Below are positions 42,427 through 52,183 of a DNA stretch of 52,192 nt, piece by piece. The position numbers and the translations under genes are program-made. Position 1 is the first letter of the stretch, and the number at the start of each line of letters is the position of its first letter. Below the pieces are notes generated by a model. That model did no database searches, was not told the origin of the DNA, and saw only the letters and a list, made by a program, of their open reading frames with translations. Source of the DNA: Candidatus Omnitrophota bacterium (lineage in GTDB: Bacteria > Omnitrophota > Gorgyraeia > JABMRN01 > RBG-13-46-9); contig JADHYM010000004.1 in the NCBI GenBank assembly GCA_016782445.1, positions 1 through 52,192 on the forward strand, read 5' to 3'.

Positions 42427-45400
42427 ATGCATTTCAAGGAACTGGAGATATGCGGATTTAAATCATTTCCCACGAGGACAAAGCTGAAATTCGAGCCCGG
42501 CGTAACTGCTGTTGTCGGACCTAACGGATGCGGCAAGAGCAATATTTCGGACTCAATACGATGGGTGCTGGGCGAGCAGTCTCCCAAATCCTTAAGGGGA
42601 AGCTCAATGCAGGACGTTATATTTAACGGAACCGACCGCGTGGAGCCGATAAATATGGCCGAGGTTTCGCTTACCTTTTCAAATGAGAACAGGGCGCTCC
42701 AGATAGATTATGACGAAGTTACGATCACCAGGCGCCTCTATCGTTCGGGTGAAAGCGAATACATTCTCAATAAGATGCCCGTGCGGCTTAAGGACATATC
42801 CGACATATTAAGAGGAACCGGCATGGGAACGAGCTCTTACTCTATCATAGAGCAGGGAAAAGTAGATATGATATTGAGCTCGAAACCGGAAGACAGAAGG
42901 TATATATTTGAGGAAGCGAGCGGCATAACTAAATACAAGGCGAAGAAAAAAGAAGCCATGAGGCGCCTCGAGCAAACTGAAAACAATCTTTTGAGAATCA
43001 ACGACATAGTAACAGAGGTTAAGAGGCAGATCAATTCTATAGAGCGCCACGCTAAAAAAGCGGAAAAATACAAAGCCGATTTTGAGATAATGAAAGAGAT
43101 GGACCTGAAACTCGCGGCCAGGGATTTCGGTATACTGGCGGCCGAGGGGGGCAGCAACAAGGAGAACATGTCGTCTCTTGTCATCAGGGAAAAAGAGCTC
43201 GGGAACGAATGCCAAAAAATAAGCGCGCTTATAGATGAATACAGGTCGAAGATGGATACCGTGCTTCAGGATTTGGCCAGCGCTCAGGAGAAGATATCCG
43301 AAGCTTCCGTTTTCATCGAAAAAGGACAGCATAAAATAGAACTCGACAAAGAAAGAACCATAGAACTTGGCCAGACCAGAAAAGAGTCCGAAAAAATACT
43401 GGAAAGCCTAAAGGAAAAAATACAGGAAAGAGAAAATGAAGTAAGCGGTATAAAAAATCGCTTTGACCATATCGTAAAACTAAAAGAAGAAAAACTTGCC
43501 TTATCCGGCGAAAAAGAAAACGCTGCCGGGGAGGCAGAGCATGAAATCGCAAAACATCAGAAGGAGATAAAGAGCGCAAAACTAAAAACCGTGGACCTTC
43601 TTTCGGGGCAGACCAAAGTAAAAAATGAACTTATCAAAATTAGCGCGGACCTGCAAACAAAAAACGCCCGTCTCAAAAGGCTCCGGATAGACCTGGTAAA
43701 CGCGAACCAGGAAAAAGAAACCATCGATGCGGACCTGGGTGAGACAGAAAGCTTTCTGAATACCTCTAGAGGCGAATTTGAAGACGCCAAAAAGAACCTT
43801 TTCTCTCTCAAGGAGCTTTTTTCCTCTAAAGAAAGGGCCATGGAGGAGATAAAACAAAAAATAGCAGATTCAAAAAGCGAAATAAATGCGCTTAACTCGA
43901 AGGAAGAGCTTCTAAGGGAGATGATAGAACGCCGCGAAGGCTTTGCAAAAAGCGTAAAGACGGTTATGGAGGAAGCCCGGAGCGGAAGATTAAAGGGAAT
44001 AATAGGGCTTTTCGCCGAAATGGTATCCCATAAGGACGGGTATAACCTGGCGCTTGAGGCAGCGCTCGGAGAAAGGGCCCAGGCGATAGTTGTGACAGAT
44101 CGTGAAGCGTTATCCGGGGCGCTTGCTTACCTTAAAGATAACAATATAGGAGCGGCCTATTTTGTGGTTCACAGTGAAGTACAAAACGCATACTCAAGGC
44201 CCGCAAACGGATTTTTTGCAAAAAAACCCGTTGGAACACTCCTCACCGAATTTGTAAATATAGAAGAAAATTATAGAAGCGCAGCTGATTGCCTTTTAGA
44301 TAACGTATATGTTGCCGAGAACGCGGAAGAGGCCAGGGCAAAGCTTGAAAGCGCAAAGACGAGTGCTTCTTTTGTGACTAAAGACGGCGAATTTTTTAAG
44401 AAAGGCCTTTGCAAGGACGGCTCCACAGGCAAAGACGAAAGCGCTTCTCTTATCGGAAGAGCCGCCAGGCTTCACGAGGTAAAGAAATCTAAAGAAAGGA
44501 TTTTTGCGGATATAGAAGCCCTGAAAGAAGAAGAAAATAAGATAAGGGCAGAAATCGAATCTATCCGGCAAAATAGCGCCAAAGCCGAGAAAGAGGCACG
44601 TCAGAAAGAAATAAGACTGGCAAACATAGATTCAAAAAAACAGGGGATACTCGAGAACCTTAAAAAAGTGGAAGACGAGATAGCTGTTATAGGGCTTGAA
44701 ATAGATGAAGTAAAAGAAGCAGTAGAAGACATATCTAAAAAAGGCGAAGAACTTAACGGGGCCCTTAACGCTAAAGAAACCGAGCATAACGCGCTAATTG
44801 ACATGATCTCGTCTTTTGAAACTCATATAGAAGAAAGTACGAAGCGAAAGAATGATTTGGCTATAGAGGCCTCTGAAATACGCTCTCAGCTAACTCTTAT
44901 CGCTAATAATGAGGAAGTAGGGGAAAGAGACTTAAAGCGGGCCGAGGGCGCGCTTCTTGAGATGCGGGAAGAGATTTCGCTTAAGCAAAAAAGCATTGCC
45001 GAAGCGATAGAAAAATTAGAAACCATAGAGGCAGAGGGCCTGAAACTTTGCGTCGAAATAGAGAAAAAAGAAAAAGAGAAGGAATATTTCAAGGTTGAGC
45101 TTTCAAGGGCTTCGGCCGAAAAAAAGGACGGACAGAAAGAGTTATCCGATAACGAGAAAATGTTTAGCGAAAAGGGAAATCTTGTAAATGAGCTACGAAA
45201 TAAAATAAGGAACTTTGAAATACATGAAAAGGAATGTGAACTCAAAATAATCAACTTAAAGGACAGGATAAACCAGGCCTATAAGATCGACATCCAGAAT
45301 TTCAGCGTTGAGTTTGATGAGAATACGAACTGGGAAGAACTGCGGAACCAGGCGGAGGTGCTTAAGATAAAACTGGACAAGCTCGGCCCCGTGAACCTTG

Positions 45401-46011
45401 TGGCAATAGACGAGCTTAAAGAATTGGAGGAGAGGTCTTCATTTCTTACCGAGCAGCAACAGGACCTTTTACAGGCGAAGGATTCCCTTCATAAAGCGAT
45501 AGTAAAAATCAACAAGACGACAAAAGCGCTTTTTCTGGACGCCTTCCAGAAGATACAGATTGAATTCAGAAACTACTTCAGGATGCTTTTTAACGGCGGC
45601 CACGCAGAGCTTCTCTTGATAGATGAGGGCGATGTTCTGGAAAGCGGGATTGAGATAGTCGCCCGGCCCCCGGGGAAGAAACTCCAGAATCTTCTGCTTC
45701 TCTCGGGCGGTGAAAAGGCCCTCACCGCGATAGCGCTACTTTTTGCCATCTTTAAAGTGAAACCAAGCCCGTTCTGCATACTTGACGAAATAGACGCGCC
45801 GCTGGACGAATCAAACATCGGAAGGTTCATACGTATATTGCAGGAGTTCGTTAAGATGTCGCAGTTTATTATTATCACGCACAACAAAAAAACCATCCAC
45901 ATGGCGAACGTTCTCTACGGGATAACAATGCAGGAGAAAGGCGTCTCGAAGGTCGTATCTGTTAAATTCGGTGAGGATACGGAAGCGAAAAAAGAAGAGA
46001 TACTGGTCTAG
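42427..46011 (+). CDS. smc: Chromosome segregation protein SMC
   Basis: LEICGFKSFPTRTKLKFEPGVTAVVGPNGCGKSNISDSIRWVLGEQSPKSLRG; coiled coils and hinge; LLSGGEKALTAIALLFAIFKVKPSPFCILDEIDAPLDESN. Confidence 0.97.
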   Translation: MHFKELEICGFKSFPTRTKLKFEPGVTAVVGPNGCGKSNISDSIRWVLGEQSPKSLRGSSMQDVIFNGTDRVEPINMAEVSLTFSNENRALQIDYDEVTITRRLYRSGESEYILNKMPVRLKDISDILRGTGMGTSSYSIIEQGKVDMILSSKPEDRRYIFEEASGITKYKAKKKEAMRRLEQTENNLLRINDIVTEVKRQINSIERHAKKAEKYKADFEIMKEMDLKLAARDFGILAAEGGSNKENMSSLVIREKELGNECQKISALIDEYRSKMDTVLQDLASAQEKISEASVFIEKGQHKIELDKERTIELGQTRKESEKILESLKEKIQERENEVSGIKNRFDHIVKLKEEKLALSGEKENAAGEAEHEIAKHQKEIKSAKLKTVDLLSGQTKVKNELIKISADLQTKNARLKRLRIDLVNANQEKETIDADLGETESFLNTSRGEFEDAKKNLFSLKELFSSKERAMEEIKQKIADSKSEINALNSKEELLREMIERREGFAKSVKTVMEEARSGRLKGIIGLFAEMVSHKDGYNLALEAALGERAQAIVVTDREALSGALAYLKDNNIGAAYFVVHSEVQNAYSRPANGFFAKKPVGTLLTEFVNIEENYRSAADCLLDNVYVAENAEEARAKLESAKTSASFVTKDGEFFKKGLCKDGSTGKDESASLIGRAARLHEVKKSKERIFADIEALKEEENKIRAEIESIRQNSAKAEKEARQKEIRLANIDSKKQGILENLKKVEDEIAVIGLEIDEVKEAVEDISKKGEELNGALNAKETEHNALIDMISSFETHIEESTKRKNDLAIEASEIRSQLTLIANNEEVGERDLKRAEGALLEMREEISLKQKSIAEAIEKLETIEAEGLKLCVEIEKKEKEKEYFKVELSRASAEKKDGQKELSDNEKMFSEKGNLVNELRNKIRNFEIHEKECELKIINLKDRINQAYKIDIQNFSVEFDENTNWEELRNQAEVLKIKLDKLGPVNLVAIDELKELEERSSFLTEQQQDLLQAKDSLHKAIVKINKTTKALFLDAFQKIQIEFRNYFRMLFNGGHAELLLIDEGDVLESGIEIVARPPGKKLQNLLLLSGGEKALTAIALLFAIFKVKPSPFCILDEIDAPLDESNIGRFIRILQEFVKMSQFIIITHNKKTIHMANVLYGITMQEKGVSKVVSVKFGEDTEAKKEEILV

Positions 46012-47219
46012 CCTTTTTTTATAAACCCTAGGAACCCCTTACCAAGGTTCGCTGCGTACAGGCAAACCTTGTTCTTGCCCGTCTTTTTAGCTTCATAAAG
46101 CGCTATATCGGCTCTATTTATTAATTTATCCATGTCTGTAGCGTCATAAGGAAAAGTCGAAACGCCAATACTTATTGTAAGCGGTTTTACGCCTTTTGAC
46201 ATATCGGAACTCTCGAAAGTCTCCTCAATTTCCTTTCTGAACCTTTCCGCGATTATTCCGGCGACTTTTTTATTCGTATTAGGCATTACGACGGTAAACT
46301 CCTCGCCTCCGTAACGGGCGACAAAATCATCCCGCCGGGAACGCTTGGATAAAATAAACGCGATTTTTCGTATCACCTCGTCGCCCTTCTGGTGGCCGAA
46401 GGTGTCGTTAAACGGCTTAAAATTATCGATATCCATCATGAGCATGCTCAAGGTTCCGTCCTGGATTCGCGTCTCTTCGAGTTCCTTTATAAGGCGCTTT
46501 CTGAGTTCCCCGGCATTCCAAAGTTTTGTCAACCAGTCGGTTTTCGAAAGGTATTCTGTTTCCTCGTAAAGGCGCGAGTTTTCGATTGCGAGCCCGGCGT
46601 GGTTGGCGAACATCGTGAGTATGCGTATATCGGATTTTGTTATGGGTTTTTTCGTGAATATGTTATCAACGAGAATCGCGCCGAGGGTTTTGTCCTTTGC
46701 CTTTAAAGGCACGGTTACGAAGTATTCTGTGTTAAGGGCATTTTGAATTTCGGGAGAGACCATTTTTTTCGCTTCTTCAGTGGTCACCTCAAACGGCATT
46801 CCTTCGAGGATCGTGAGCGCGAGTATTCCCATTTCTTCCGTGAGCGGCATCTTGATGCCCTTGACAAGCGTATTAAGGCGTGATTCCGGGTCTTTTTTAA
46901 ATTTGGCGTATGAATTGATAAGGTCCTCCAGGCTAAGCTTGGCCATCTCTATGCCTTTCCATATCCTGTCGGCTTCTTCTCCGGAATGCGGGCCTATGCC
47001 CATTTTTCCCTCAAGAACGTTTTCCTTCTCGTTTACCAGAAAAAGCATGGCGCGGTTAAAGCCCAGGCCCTCGTGCGAGGTAAGGGCAGTGAGAATGATA
47101 TAGAAGATCTGATCGAGCTTAAGAGTGGTCCTCATTGCGTTCGAGACTTCGTATAGAAGCCGGAGCTCCCTTTCGATCCTCTCGTAACCGTACTGTCTCT
47201 TTGGTTGTATCGGTGTCAT
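46008..47219 (-). CDS. GAF-GGDEF diguanylate cyclase
   Basis: GAF-like N-terminus; LMMDIDNFKPFNDTFGHQKGDEVIRKIAFIL...RRDDFVARYGGEEFTVVMP (GGEEF and RxxD I-site). Confidence 0.93.
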   Translation of the reverse strand: MTPIQPKRQYGYERIERELRLLYEVSNAMRTTLKLDQIFYIILTALTSHEGLGFNRAMLFLVNEKENVLEGKMGIGPHSGEEADRIWKGIEMAKLSLEDLINSYAKFKKDPESRLNTLVKGIKMPLTEEMGILALTILEGMPFEVTTEEAKKMVSPEIQNALNTEYFVTVPLKAKDKTLGAILVDNIFTKKPITKSDIRILTMFANHAGLAIENSRLYEETEYLSKTDWLTKLWNAGELRKRLIKELEETRIQDGTLSMLMMDIDNFKPFNDTFGHQKGDEVIRKIAFILSKRSRRDDFVARYGGEEFTVVMPNTNKKVAGIIAERFRKEIEETFESSDMSKGVKPLTISIGVSTFPYDATDMDKLINRADIALYEAKKTGKNKVCLYAANLGKGFLGFIKKG

Positions 47220-47256: not shown

Positions 47257-47365
47257 GGGTTAAAAAATGCTGAAAAAACTATACTAAACTATTACATTAT
47301 AGTTACACTGTTATGTCAATAAAAAGCTGATTATGTGGTATATTTATCTATATATGATTTTGATA

Positions 47366-50300
47366 ATGACAAATAAGCAGCGCAAAATATTAGTCAGATT
47401 CATCACTGCGCTACTCGTATGTTTTTTTATTATGAGTGATGCGTTTGCACTTGCGCCGCAGTATGTCGCAGACACCCCCGCGTTCCGCCTAAAATACTTA
47501 AGAAATCATCTCGAGAAGTCCCTTGATACCCAATGCGCCCGGACACCGGAGAAAAAAGCCTTCATGGAAGAATGCGGCGACCCTGAAGCGCTCCTTCTTT
47601 CAACCGGTAAGCGTCTTGTAGCTGAAAGGGCTTGGAACGACGACCTGAGATTCGTGCGCGCCAATATTCACGAGGATATAGAAATCCTCATGCAAATCCT
47701 CCGCGAGAAAGACAAATATCGATATTACGGCATACGGGACCTTGTCTTAAGAAAACTCCCCATGGAAGGGCACACACTTGATACATCTGAAAGATACGTA
47801 AATCATATCATTGCTATGGTCTTTGAATGGCTGACCCTCGTTGAAGCCGAAATTATTGATGAAGCCAAAATCCCTGAGCCCTATGCCGCTCTTGTGTGTA
47901 CGCTTAAAGGGGAGATAAGGTCAAGGAAACACAGCTATTTCTTAAGCGACTTCTGGGATCTCAAAAAGAGGCAGGAAAAAATAAAAGACGCGATAAAAGA
48001 CGGAATGAGATTTTATCAAACTGCATCTGAAAAATCAGGTACTAAACAAAGCATTGCAGTTGAAGACAATGTTGATAAACTTATTAGATGGCATCGTACA
48101 GGTAAGGGGTTTGAGGTAGGAGACATGATAGAAATTCCTTACCAGATAGGAGGCAAAAAAGAGTTTAGAAGAAAACATGGATATATAAGTTTTATTTTAG
48201 ATGTTCCTGGAAAAGAGGGAGATACAAGGGAGATCGTTTTTGTAGGTGAAAATGACCCGAATCATGGATTTGTTGTGAACATATATTTAGCCGATGATTA
48301 TAAAAATAAGTCAAGCTGTGAGCCAATCGCCACGTATAAATATTACGAATATAAAGGAAGTACAGGGAAATGGGTTACACAGGCTATTTCTATACCGCTA
48401 GGCAAACTTGATGTAATAAAAGCGCTGAAGGGTGAAAGGCTTAAAGTTTTTAACAGGCCAACAAGAGTCAAGATCGATCAAAGGCCTCAAGCTTATGTCT
48501 GTCGGTTCAGATTCATGGGCGGAACGAGCATTGCTGAGGACGAACATTTGTGTTTACCGGTGGAATGCGCGAATCATTTTAGAGAGAAAGGAAAGTATGT
48601 AATAGCTCGTGTTGAATATGACGAAGAGAGGGGGCAGGGCGTAAGTTTTTACTTCGAAAAAGATTATAGACCTAACATAAAAAGTAAACGTGCAATATTA
48701 ACAGAGTATGAAAATTCATCGAAGATAGGAAGGGCTTTTGCTGCCTTTTTAGAGATAAAAAAATACCAGAAAGGCCAAGCGCCAAAAAAAGTTAAAGAAC
48801 AAGCCTTGGGAATGAACCTGTATACCAACGCAAAAGGAGAATATGAGGCCAGGGTTATGCAAGGCAGGCAAGTCATAAGATTTCTTCTTTCGAAAATTGC
48901 TGATGAATTTTTTGAGAAAGGCGATACTATAAGAAAGATTTTAAGCGCATGCTTTGCCTATCATCCTGATTACGGAAGGTATGTTGAAGTCAGAATATAC
49001 CCGAGACGAATTTTAGAGGGCGCTTTAGTGAAGCTCGAAAAATATATTGAAAAAGCGGATATCGAAACAAGAAAAAGAAGGAGTATTCAATCAAGCATCT
49101 TGGATCTTTTTAAGTTGATGCCGTGTTCGACACCAAAGGAAATAGCGCGAGGTGCGGCAGTTTTAAGCCGAAAATTAGAAAGGCATAATAATGAAGATGT
49201 AATAAAAGATACCTTGGCCAGGCTCAGGATTTTTGTTAAGGCCGCCGGTAGCGACCGTATTTCTGATAGGGAAATAACAAGAGATGGAATTCTTTTGGCA
49301 AAGCGCTATTACCGTAAAGAATGCGGCAATCTCCTGACAGAGCTTGAAACAGTAAAAATGATGGACTACATTTTGGGAGATAGAAATATATATGGCAAAA
49401 AAATAAAACCTCCAACTCGCTTTAATCTAGGGTTGGTGAATAAAGACGGAAGGGCGCATATTGTTTTCGGATCAAAACAAATTTTTATGCATGGATTTAA
49501 GGGTTTAGAAGGTAGAGAAATTATTTTAGTACGCGTTCCTGATGAAAAATTTGAATTTGTTTTTCATGCATATGATACCGAAGATTACAAAAATAACCCC
49601 GACGGAGCAGAAATTAAGCGTGTACTTATAAGAGATCTTAATTCCGGACTTCTTATACCGATCGAGCGAAAGGACGTGTATTACGCAAAAGAACTTATTG
49701 AAAAAGGTATGTATCGCAGGGCTTTGGAGGTTTTAGAGGCTATTCCGGTAAAAGGCATACCGGTATTTAAATTGAGAAGACAGGCACGCGAGGGCCTTCG
49801 TCGGAATGAAAGTGCTGCTGAAAACCCGGGTTTGCTTAATGAAGACGAAAGACTGAGAAATCATTCCTATATCCTGGCCAGGCTTATATGTTCGGGTAAA
49901 TCCAGAGAAAGCGTTGAAAGATATATGAAATTTTTTCCGCTGACTACCGGCGAATCCCCGGACAGAAGAGTGATCGCCCATCTGAGGACTTATTTTGTAG
50001 AATTCATACAGGGAATAGCGCGGGACGGCGAGACAATCCAGGTTATTACAAACTTAATGATTAACCTGGATATGGAATCCGACCTTCCGGCGCAGGCGCA
50101 TGTAAATATAGCGGTAATTGAAGCACTTGCGGAGTCATCTGATGAGTATAAGACCGAAGCCCTTGCTCTGGAATTATCACGCTTTTTGGATTACGAAGGA
50201 ATACTTAAAGACGAGACTTTAAAGGTGCTTCAAGATTTCTTTTACTCTATTCCGGATAATGATAAGGTATTTTTAACTCCTGAATCCGAAAATGGCAGAA

Positions 50301-52183
50301 GGCCAAAAGGTTCCGATTATGATGGGCTAATCGCATATATTAGAAGCATATCAAGCGTGCGAAGGCTTACGCGTCTAGGGGAGATAAAGTTCGGAGTACT
50401 TAAAGAACTTGGTGATGAAAATGCGGAGATGATGCTTTATGAATCATGCTTACGCTTGGTTGTGTATATAGTGAGAAAAGAGTATCTCGGAAAAAGCAAA
50501 TTTTCATTTATGGAGCTCATAACAATAGGAAACGGCTTAAATAAAACAAATGGAAAAAAGAGTAAAGAAGGTTTAATTAAGTCTGGTCTAGCCAGGGCTG
50601 CACATCGCCATAAGCCACAGTATGGAAGACCGTTTGCGTCTTATGCTGGGGTAGCTGTTAGAAGAGCATTAGACGGGGTAATCAATGGGAGAAAAAATGA
50701 TGTTACGCTTCCGTATAGACTGAGCAAGGAAGCAAGCATTTTTGAAAGTATGTGTCGAGAGCAAGGTCTTGATCCTGGAAATTATAAAATACATAATATT
50801 GTATTTGCGGAGGCGCTAAACTTTACCGAAGCGGAGGTTGGAGAGCTGCGTGCTGCGCTTTTTGGCCAGCATTACATGAATAAGCCAGATATGCTTGAAG
50901 ACGGCGGCGAAAGTGACAGTACGGAAAAAATAGCAAGCCGCGAGAATGAGCTATATAAGAAAGTAGTGCGTCCCGAGATGGTGGATGTGATGATAAAAAG
51001 GGCCATAGAAATAGTACAAAGTATGTTTCCACCCGGAAAAATGAGAGGGTATAAAAGGCGTATTTTAATCGAGTATGTTTCCCCGGTACTTAAAGGTAAA
51101 AGTGGCATGACTCAACATGACATGGCGCTAAGATTAGGATTTTCAAGAAGGGTAAACAAAGGAGAATCAGTTGGTAGCCATATGCGCGCAGATCGTAGGG
51201 GTAATAAAGAACGGGGGCTGTATGCTATTCTGAGAAGAGCAGCAGAAGAGCTGGATTTTAGTATAGATGATTTTTCAGGGGGACTCAGGGACAGGACTAC
51301 GGGCAGAGGGCTGAGAATTGAGCGTGGCTCACCGGGTGATGCTTTACGGGTTATCTATGATGTATTTGGATTTAAAGAATTCAAAAGAGCTGACCTGCTC
51401 CCGCTTAGAAAATATCATCCGTCCACAGTGGATGTGGAACTTAGGATGTTACGCGAACTTGGACTCCTTATTCGCGTAAAAAGAGGCACATACAGGCTCA
51501 GCGCAATCCTCCGTGGTTCAAACGACGAAGAAACCTCAAGGAATATAGCCGCTCTTTATAATATGGAATTCAAGATAGGAAGAAAAAACGTACCCTTAGC
51601 CCGATATGAAATACCTGACGGAAAGCTTGATACGGTTCGGGAGCTTATAAAAGCTGAACTAAGCCAAAGATATATTAACGATGCTATGAGCGCAAAAGAA
51701 CGCACAGAGCCTGCTACTATAAGGGTTTGGAAGGGATATGCCTCACCAAGTCAGGGGAGTATGCTAACTCGAATCGAGAATATCTCTCAAAAAGGCCCTT
51801 ACAAAATAGAGTTCTTGAGCCTCGAAGAACTTATGGAGAGCGCAAGTAAAGAAGGCAATCAGGTCACGATTATGCCTCATAAAAAAGGTATGCAAAATAA
51901 CGGAAGCATTATTTATATGAATCCGAGGAAAAGAACAATAGGTGCAGAGGATATTGTTCAGATAGGAGGTATAATAGCAACCGGTGTCGCGTACTTAAAT
52001 AACAATGATCTAGCCCTTAGAAATCTCTATAAACTTCTCACAGGCAAAGAAAAAGATATAACAGTTTCAAAACTAATGGAAGACCCGGCCGGATTTATCT
52101 TTGGATTAAAGGTAAAAAAGGTTGATATAGATGACCTCATGCGCCTTAACGAGCGGATCGAAGAGCTTCTCGAATCCGCATAA
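47366..52183 (+). CDS. Giant multidomain protein: signal-peptide-like N-terminus, repeated beta-domain, sigma-70 region-2-like segment, HTH/winged-helix-like segments
   Basis: TNKQRKILVRFITALLVCFFIMSDAFALAPQ N-terminus; sigma-like GDENAEMMLYESCLRLVVYIVRKEYLGKSKFSFMELITIGNGL...YGRPFASYAGVAVRRALDGVINGRKNDVTLPYRLSKE. Confidence 0.8.
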   Translation: MTNKQRKILVRFITALLVCFFIMSDAFALAPQYVADTPAFRLKYLRNHLEKSLDTQCARTPEKKAFMEECGDPEALLLSTGKRLVAERAWNDDLRFVRANIHEDIEILMQILREKDKYRYYGIRDLVLRKLPMEGHTLDTSERYVNHIIAMVFEWLTLVEAEIIDEAKIPEPYAALVCTLKGEIRSRKHSYFLSDFWDLKKRQEKIKDAIKDGMRFYQTASEKSGTKQSIAVEDNVDKLIRWHRTGKGFEVGDMIEIPYQIGGKKEFRRKHGYISFILDVPGKEGDTREIVFVGENDPNHGFVVNIYLADDYKNKSSCEPIATYKYYEYKGSTGKWVTQAISIPLGKLDVIKALKGERLKVFNRPTRVKIDQRPQAYVCRFRFMGGTSIAEDEHLCLPVECANHFREKGKYVIARVEYDEERGQGVSFYFEKDYRPNIKSKRAILTEYENSSKIGRAFAAFLEIKKYQKGQAPKKVKEQALGMNLYTNAKGEYEARVMQGRQVIRFLLSKIADEFFEKGDTIRKILSACFAYHPDYGRYVEVRIYPRRILEGALVKLEKYIEKADIETRKRRSIQSSILDLFKLMPCSTPKEIARGAAVLSRKLERHNNEDVIKDTLARLRIFVKAAGSDRISDREITRDGILLAKRYYRKECGNLLTELETVKMMDYILGDRNIYGKKIKPPTRFNLGLVNKDGRAHIVFGSKQIFMHGFKGLEGREIILVRVPDEKFEFVFHAYDTEDYKNNPDGAEIKRVLIRDLNSGLLIPIERKDVYYAKELIEKGMYRRALEVLEAIPVKGIPVFKLRRQAREGLRRNESAAENPGLLNEDERLRNHSYILARLICSGKSRESVERYMKFFPLTTGESPDRRVIAHLRTYFVEFIQGIARDGETIQVITNLMINLDMESDLPAQAHVNIAVIEALAESSDEYKTEALALELSRFLDYEGILKDETLKVLQDFFYSIPDNDKVFLTPESENGRRPKGSDYDGLIAYIRSISSVRRLTRLGEIKFGVLKELGDENAEMMLYESCLRLVVYIVRKEYLGKSKFSFMELITIGNGLNKTNGKKSKEGLIKSGLARAAHRHKPQYGRPFASYAGVAVRRALDGVINGRKNDVTLPYRLSKEASIFESMCREQGLDPGNYKIHNIVFAEALNFTEAEVGELRAALFGQHYMNKPDMLEDGGESDSTEKIASRENELYKKVVRPEMVDVMIKRAIEIVQSMFPPGKMRGYKRRILIEYVSPVLKGKSGMTQHDMALRLGFSRRVNKGESVGSHMRADRRGNKERGLYAILRRAAEELDFSIDDFSGGLRDRTTGRGLRIERGSPGDALRVIYDVFGFKEFKRADLLPLRKYHPSTVDVELRMLRELGLLIRVKRGTYRLSAILRGSNDEETSRNIAALYNMEFKIGRKNVPLARYEIPDGKLDTVRELIKAELSQRYINDAMSAKERTEPATIRVWKGYASPSQGSMLTRIENISQKGPYKIEFLSLEELMESASKEGNQVTIMPHKKGMQNNGSIIYMNPRKRTIGAEDIVQIGGIIATGVAYLNNNDLALRNLYKLLTGKEKDITVSKLMEDPAGFIFGLKVKKVDIDDLMRLNERIEELLESA

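Follow-up and report, generated by a model that had tools for sequence, protein, structure and literature searches.

The window, by which we mean the whole 52,192-nucleotide stretch of a Candidatus Omnitrophota MAG contig that was analysed, carries at its end a 4.85 kb gene on the + strand (47333-52183), and the contig ends 9 bases past it. The gene is one intact frame of 1616 aa with its stop codon at 52181-52183, in agreement with an earlier reading made from the letters alone (the sequence-only reading), which had described a large protein of ~1600 residues. The upstream genes include one that is SMC-like (42427-46011) and, on the opposite strand, one that is GGDEF-like (46008-47219), both named from inspecting their translations. 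No anti-sigma-like gene was found among the upstream neighbours examined, the downstream side being limited to the 9 bases before the contig end. The features of the gene are collected in Table 1. The N-terminal domain is shared with another large protein, of 1128 aa, which the genome encodes on contig C4.

Table 1. Features of the sigma-bearing gene, with positions in the window.
Feature	Residues	Position	Strand	Basis or remark
Signal-peptide-like N-end (MTNKQRKILVRFITALLVCFFIMSDAFA, followed by LAPQ)	12-39	47366..47449	+	Probable start codon 12
N-terminal domain	~44-245	47462..48067	+	27% identity, E 8e-16, with the 1128-aa protein
Beta-rich repeat array	~250-800	48080..49732	+	blastp alignment with L027; repeated motifs inspected
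Pre-sigma helical domain (FLDYEG..FFxSIP)	897-980	50021..50272	+	Recurs directly before sigma
Sigma-70 regions 1.2-2.4	997-1134	50321..50734	+	NCBIfam, PDB and clade HMM matches
17-residue insertion after the region 2.2 beta'-contact motif (ELITIGN followed by GLNKTNGKKSKEGLIKS)		50534..50584	+	Alignments
Region-3-like helical stretch	1135-1260	50735..51112	+	Poorly conserved, 17% with L027
Region-4-like helix-turn-helix	~1265-1325	51125..51307	+	Transitive alignment via L027 and L028
AbiEi-like winged helix	1336-1395	51338..51517	+	Pfam AbiEi_4 E 0.0011, below cut-off
C-terminal alpha/beta module	1396-1616	51518..52180	+	Common to many Omnitrophota large proteins

The N-end of the protein combines a hydrophobic segment (residues 23-41) with a basic n-region (TNKQRK, net +3) and an AxA site (AFA followed by LAP), as expected from the signal-peptide-like N-terminus proposed earlier, and no TM-like stretch was found in the protein beyond this segment. 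Signal peptides were judged by a simple rule (n-region charge, h-region and AxA site), which was passed by 8 of the 11 large ("giant") proteins with a visible N-end vs 0 of 40 other genes of the window; the window protein passes it. Export via a Sec signal peptide is therefore probable for the window protein. As the n-region is basic, the positive-inside rule would leave the N-end inside and everything after residue 41 outside, so that the sigma module described below is predicted to lie outside the membrane. The sequence-only reading had also suggested a search for paralogs sharing the ALAPQ N-terminus. One such paralog with a signal-like frame was found in the same genome, and it and the window protein were the only AxA-LAP cases with a frame of this kind; wider use of ALAPQ as a genome-wide tag was rejected because the reversed pattern was commoner (10 matches vs 5 in the strict search). 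Many giants have an N-end that is signal-like in a looser sense. A second giant (L029:2885-7999, 1705+ aa) has an ALAPW signal-like N-end together with a catalytic domain resembling starch synthase, a kind of enzyme that one would look for in the cytosol. Cytosol-type domains in giants are odd for exported proteins, and it could be that the N-end does not export.

Sigma factors are the proteins that tell RNA polymerase where to start. By profile and alignment, residues ~997-1325 (50321-51307) of the window protein are homologous to sigma-70 regions 1.2-4; the peptide quoted in the sequence-only reading covers residues 1027-1303 (50411-51240) of this stretch. Residues 994-1134 matched sigma models exclusively, with NCBIfam rpoS_proteo (TIGR02394) at E 3.6e-7, and a phmmer search of PDB with the segment returned sigma factors only (best E 2.9e-5). 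An HMM built from three free Omnitrophota sigmas matched the segment at E 1.8e-9, and the real segment scored 37.9 bits vs at most 7.2 bits among 5000 shuffles. These results uphold the proposed sigma-70 region-2-like domain, for which a profile search without a sigma-70 match would have counted as a refutation. RpoS supplies both the best named profile and the best PDB match (7vf9/7f0r), but the segment lies far below the curated rpoS cut-off (30 vs 378.7 bits) and has lost key residues. A Pfam search gave no sigma match in the window protein, and Pfam alone would have led us to reject its sigma identity wrongly. Regions 3-4 were assigned in the window protein via relatives only: the HTH-like "MTQHDMALRLGFSR" corresponds in alignment to region 4.2 of relatives, and alignment through L027 and L028, transitive for region 4, supports the region-3-like and HTH-like stretches that had been noted after region 2. 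In an AF2 model of residues 901-1616 made with three sequences the sigma part was unfolded (pLDDT 23-44), and a fold search with this low-pLDDT model yielded nothing significant and no sigma among the 50 best matches.

Two relatives make the architecture clearer. L027 is colinear with the window protein at 28% identity over 1026 aa and L028 is 26% identical over 752 aa, and all three have the same module order, i.e. pre-sigma, regions 1.2-2.4, 3 and 4, winged helix and C-module. The winged helix is 55% identical to that of L027. The sigma part is clearer in both relatives than in the window protein, with an rpoS match at E 1.8e-45 across regions 1.2-4 in L028 and a Pfam Sigma70_r2 match at E 3.5e-5 in L027; the Pfam Sigma70_r2 cut-off is passed by relatives L028 and L071. 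A chimeric assembly was rejected because L027 is colinear over such a length. At the end of the L027 contig (4741-4935) the frame goes on in another frame, and the edge piece (GRLRLDIT..CYYTDDYFRK) resembles residues ~285-325 of the window protein; this frame change is probably a sequencing or assembly frameshift. L028 was also matched at E 2.6e-48 by NF041931 (165 bits vs an 800-bit cut-off), the model of MzaA, a 726-aa protein of the MZA anti-phage system which is likewise large and contains a sigma-70 region. This match is confined to the sigma part of L028, and a defence-system reading was rejected on that ground; a PADLOC search of the window protein gave no match.

We surveyed a sample of 386 genomes from the Omnitrophota class to which the window belongs, nearly all of which contain an ordinary sigma of ~280 aa. 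A sigma-70 module embedded in a long reading frame (708-20,944 aa) was observed in at least 14 of the 386, a count that includes two (G010 and G294) where the pre-sigma domain went undetected, and in one genome of another class. Since most MAGs are in fragments and scoring was restricted to the two best candidates of each genome, 14 is a minimum. Examples include frames in G108 (4640 aa), G212 (1446 aa), G359 (7123 aa), G294 (2350 aa), G253 (932 aa), G009 (2869 aa), G308 (16,369 aa) and G370 (3581 aa, with several sigma copies in the one protein and more on contig C32), and Pfam Sigma70_r2 E-values across the long-frame examples ranged from 7e-4 to 4e-28. The pre-sigma domain, a helical domain of ~85 aa that is undescribed so far, stands ahead of most of these modules. 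It was found at 16 places in 13 of the 386 genomes, where each frame that contains it has a length of 708-20,944 aa; a further copy, in a frame of 1961 aa, comes from G409, a genome of another class. Sigma follows the domain directly in 16 of these 17 places, the exception being G204; one place (L144) leaves its contig just inside region 1.2, and sigma was judged there by eye. On these matches the sigma-in-giant architecture is recurrent in Omnitrophota and not unique to the window protein, which has pre-sigma and C-terminal modules that belong to long frames of the phylum.

The C-terminal module (~220 aa) was present in 26 of the 386 genomes, in frames all of at least 651 aa save one broken frame. 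It ends LNxRMxELLxSA and is usually placed at the extreme C-end of large Omnitrophota proteins, where it might serve in sorting or assembly. AF2 gave a partly confident alpha/beta fold for the C-end, for which no PDB fold match was obtained at E <= 0.001, and phmmer against PDB returned nothing convincing for the C-end.

Several giants are mosaics or chains of domains. The locus L077-L079 (G308:C17:3-49109) is one uninterrupted reading frame of 16,369 codons, a mosaic of many domains with pieces or copies of serine dehydratase, Glu/Leu dehydrogenase, radical SAM, HPr and LMW phosphatase, as well as HTH_3, histidine-kinase ATPase, methyltransferase and sigma-70. Giants with several sigma-70 modules each were observed at L075:2-10744 and L125 (G370:C23 and C32). 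L032:1-8481 (G010) holds a 2827-aa open frame with six HTH_3, one HTH_8 and two weak sigma-like stretches, and by its domain matches strings together domains of DNA-binding type.

A tree of 56 modules with an RpoD outgroup placed 15 of 17 giant-borne modules in one clade (98/89), adjoining the free ~280-aa sigma, the nearest free-standing group in the tree. A single clade for all 17 was unrejected (p-AU 0.30). Two modules of G370:C23 branch nearer to the free sigmas than to the other giants. Long branches weaken the tree, and a common origin of the giant-borne sigma modules, alongside the free ~280-aa sigma, is therefore likely but short of demonstrated. This RpoS/RpoD-like free sigma (G000:C7, L094, in the genome of the window) has regions 1.2-4 in the same order as the giant-borne modules but is intact and conserved, and is without a pre-sigma domain or signal peptide. 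No close relative of it was found on viral contigs.

Residues were compared using E. coli sigma70 numbering, assigned by motif, with E407, W433, W434 and Q437 counted among the residues of core binding and promoter melting. In all 29 rows of the free-sigma table (27 distinct sequences) D403, G408, N409, F427, Y430, W433, W434 and Q437 are kept, and E407 is kept in 28 of 29, with D in one. The window module has I at E407, while the promoter-melting aromatics W433 and W434 are replaced by V and A and Q437 by R. The beta' contact motif of region 2.2 (DLIxEGN) is lost, reading ELITIGN with the insert of 17 aa behind it, as is the recognition helix motif of region 4.2 (RERVRQIE); the fold residues G408 and F427 are kept. 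Of 18 giant modules, all retain G408, whereas 5 retain E407, 7 W433 and 9 W434, and the contact residues are thus variable among giant-borne modules and near-invariant in free sigmas. In modules of G091, G308 and G370:C42, WW survives together with much of region 4, and some (G091, G370:C42) have RERIRQ as well. As some members keep the key residues, non-function may not extend to the whole family, and its less worn members may have true sigma or RNAP-binding activity. In a comparison of the genome of the window with G005, identity of the free sigma is 82%; for the giant-borne protein the values are 34% in regions 1.2-2.4, 17% in region 3, 28% in the beta array, 55% in the winged helix and 41% in the C-module. 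Set against its neighbours, the 34% of regions 1.2-2.4 indicates that the sigma part decays no faster than they do, region 3 excepted.

The explanation we favour, tentatively and with a little less than even confidence, is that the window protein is an exported giant whose sigma fold is a structural or binding domain and no longer directs transcription. The large protein encoded by the gene would belong to the giant-protein class of Omnitrophota and be either exported or displayed on the surface. In the distant past, one giant would have captured a copy of the ~280-aa sigma factor of its lineage, this copy would have been joined to the new ~85-aa helical pre-sigma domain, and the pair would have been passed on as one unit. 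In the window protein the sigma-70 fold, now putatively without use in directing transcription, would form a helical structural or binding domain between the beta-repeat array and the C-terminal module. A repurposed fold, one of two possibilities raised in the sequence-only reading, is thus the best-fitting reading of the window protein, its key residues being lost.

The sigma module may instead be a passive passenger, neutral and slowly decaying in giants that accrete cytosolic genes, and held by the need for an open frame. This is unlikely in our estimation, even though single frames that combine many household domains, the high divergence with its loss of functional residues and the several sigma copies of the G370 proteins are all in its favour. 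At least 8 families, from two classes, preserve the order of pre-sigma and sigma, region 2 of the window protein is conserved as well as its neighbours, and several members keep functional residues, each of which argues against mere carriage. We regard as improbable a cytosolic scaffold binding RNAP or DNA, in which the N-end would be non-exporting and sigma plus winged helix would act as a regulator or competitor; the cytosol-type domains in relatives and the AbiEi-like winged helix after sigma would suit it, but the contrast in signal-like N-ends between giants and ordinary genes and the lost contact residues do not.

Omnitrophota have been proposed to include predators or parasites and carry unexplained giant proteins (PMC10066038), which, with the signal-like N-ends and the WW and RERIRQ retained in some modules, might point to an exported sigma-like effector, a giant reaching another cell where its sigma would act on the RNA polymerase or DNA. 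We consider this very improbable, as core-binding and promoter residues are gone from the window module and no delivery signal or route was identified; many kinds of cytosolic enzyme occur in the same giants, so transcription is not singled out. That the less worn giant modules bind the RNA polymerase of another cell, as secreted effectors of a predator or parasite, we hold to be about as improbable.

The other possibility raised earlier, a membrane-tethered sigma released by proteolysis, has a membrane segment and sigma module in a single chain and a precedent in ECF52 (PMC5826349) to recommend it but was not borne out and is highly improbable, because the key core-binding and recognition residues are lost, the sigma part is C-terminal of an N-in segment and predicted outside, which leaves no cytoplasmic stretch to release, and the upstream genes examined include no anti-sigma-like neighbour. 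ECF52 (SCO4117 of Streptomyces) has sigma, membrane and extracellular parts with sigma cytoplasmic (PMC5826349); it differs from the window protein in being of ECF type, in having sigma before the membrane region, in its anti-sigma-like zinc finger and in its restriction to Actinobacteria.

Giant ORFs of Omnitrophota have been described as very long frames with few annotated domains and poorly understood roles (PMC10066038). Those are ORFs over 20 kb, whereas the sigma-bearing gene here is 4.85 kb, and the terms "sigma factor" and "signal peptide" are absent from the main text of that paper. In the literature searched, which has many journals and all preprints outside its scope, no exported giant with a sigma module was found to be described. 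Sigma factors are otherwise cytosolic initiation factors, and a lasting family of such sigma-70 modules in signal-bearing giants, each accompanied by a partner domain of its own, would clearly exemplify the reuse of a transcription fold for another purpose. Intact and worn members both exist, and function is therefore directly testable. The sigma modules also offer a handle on the composition of the poorly understood Omnitrophota giants (PMC10066038).
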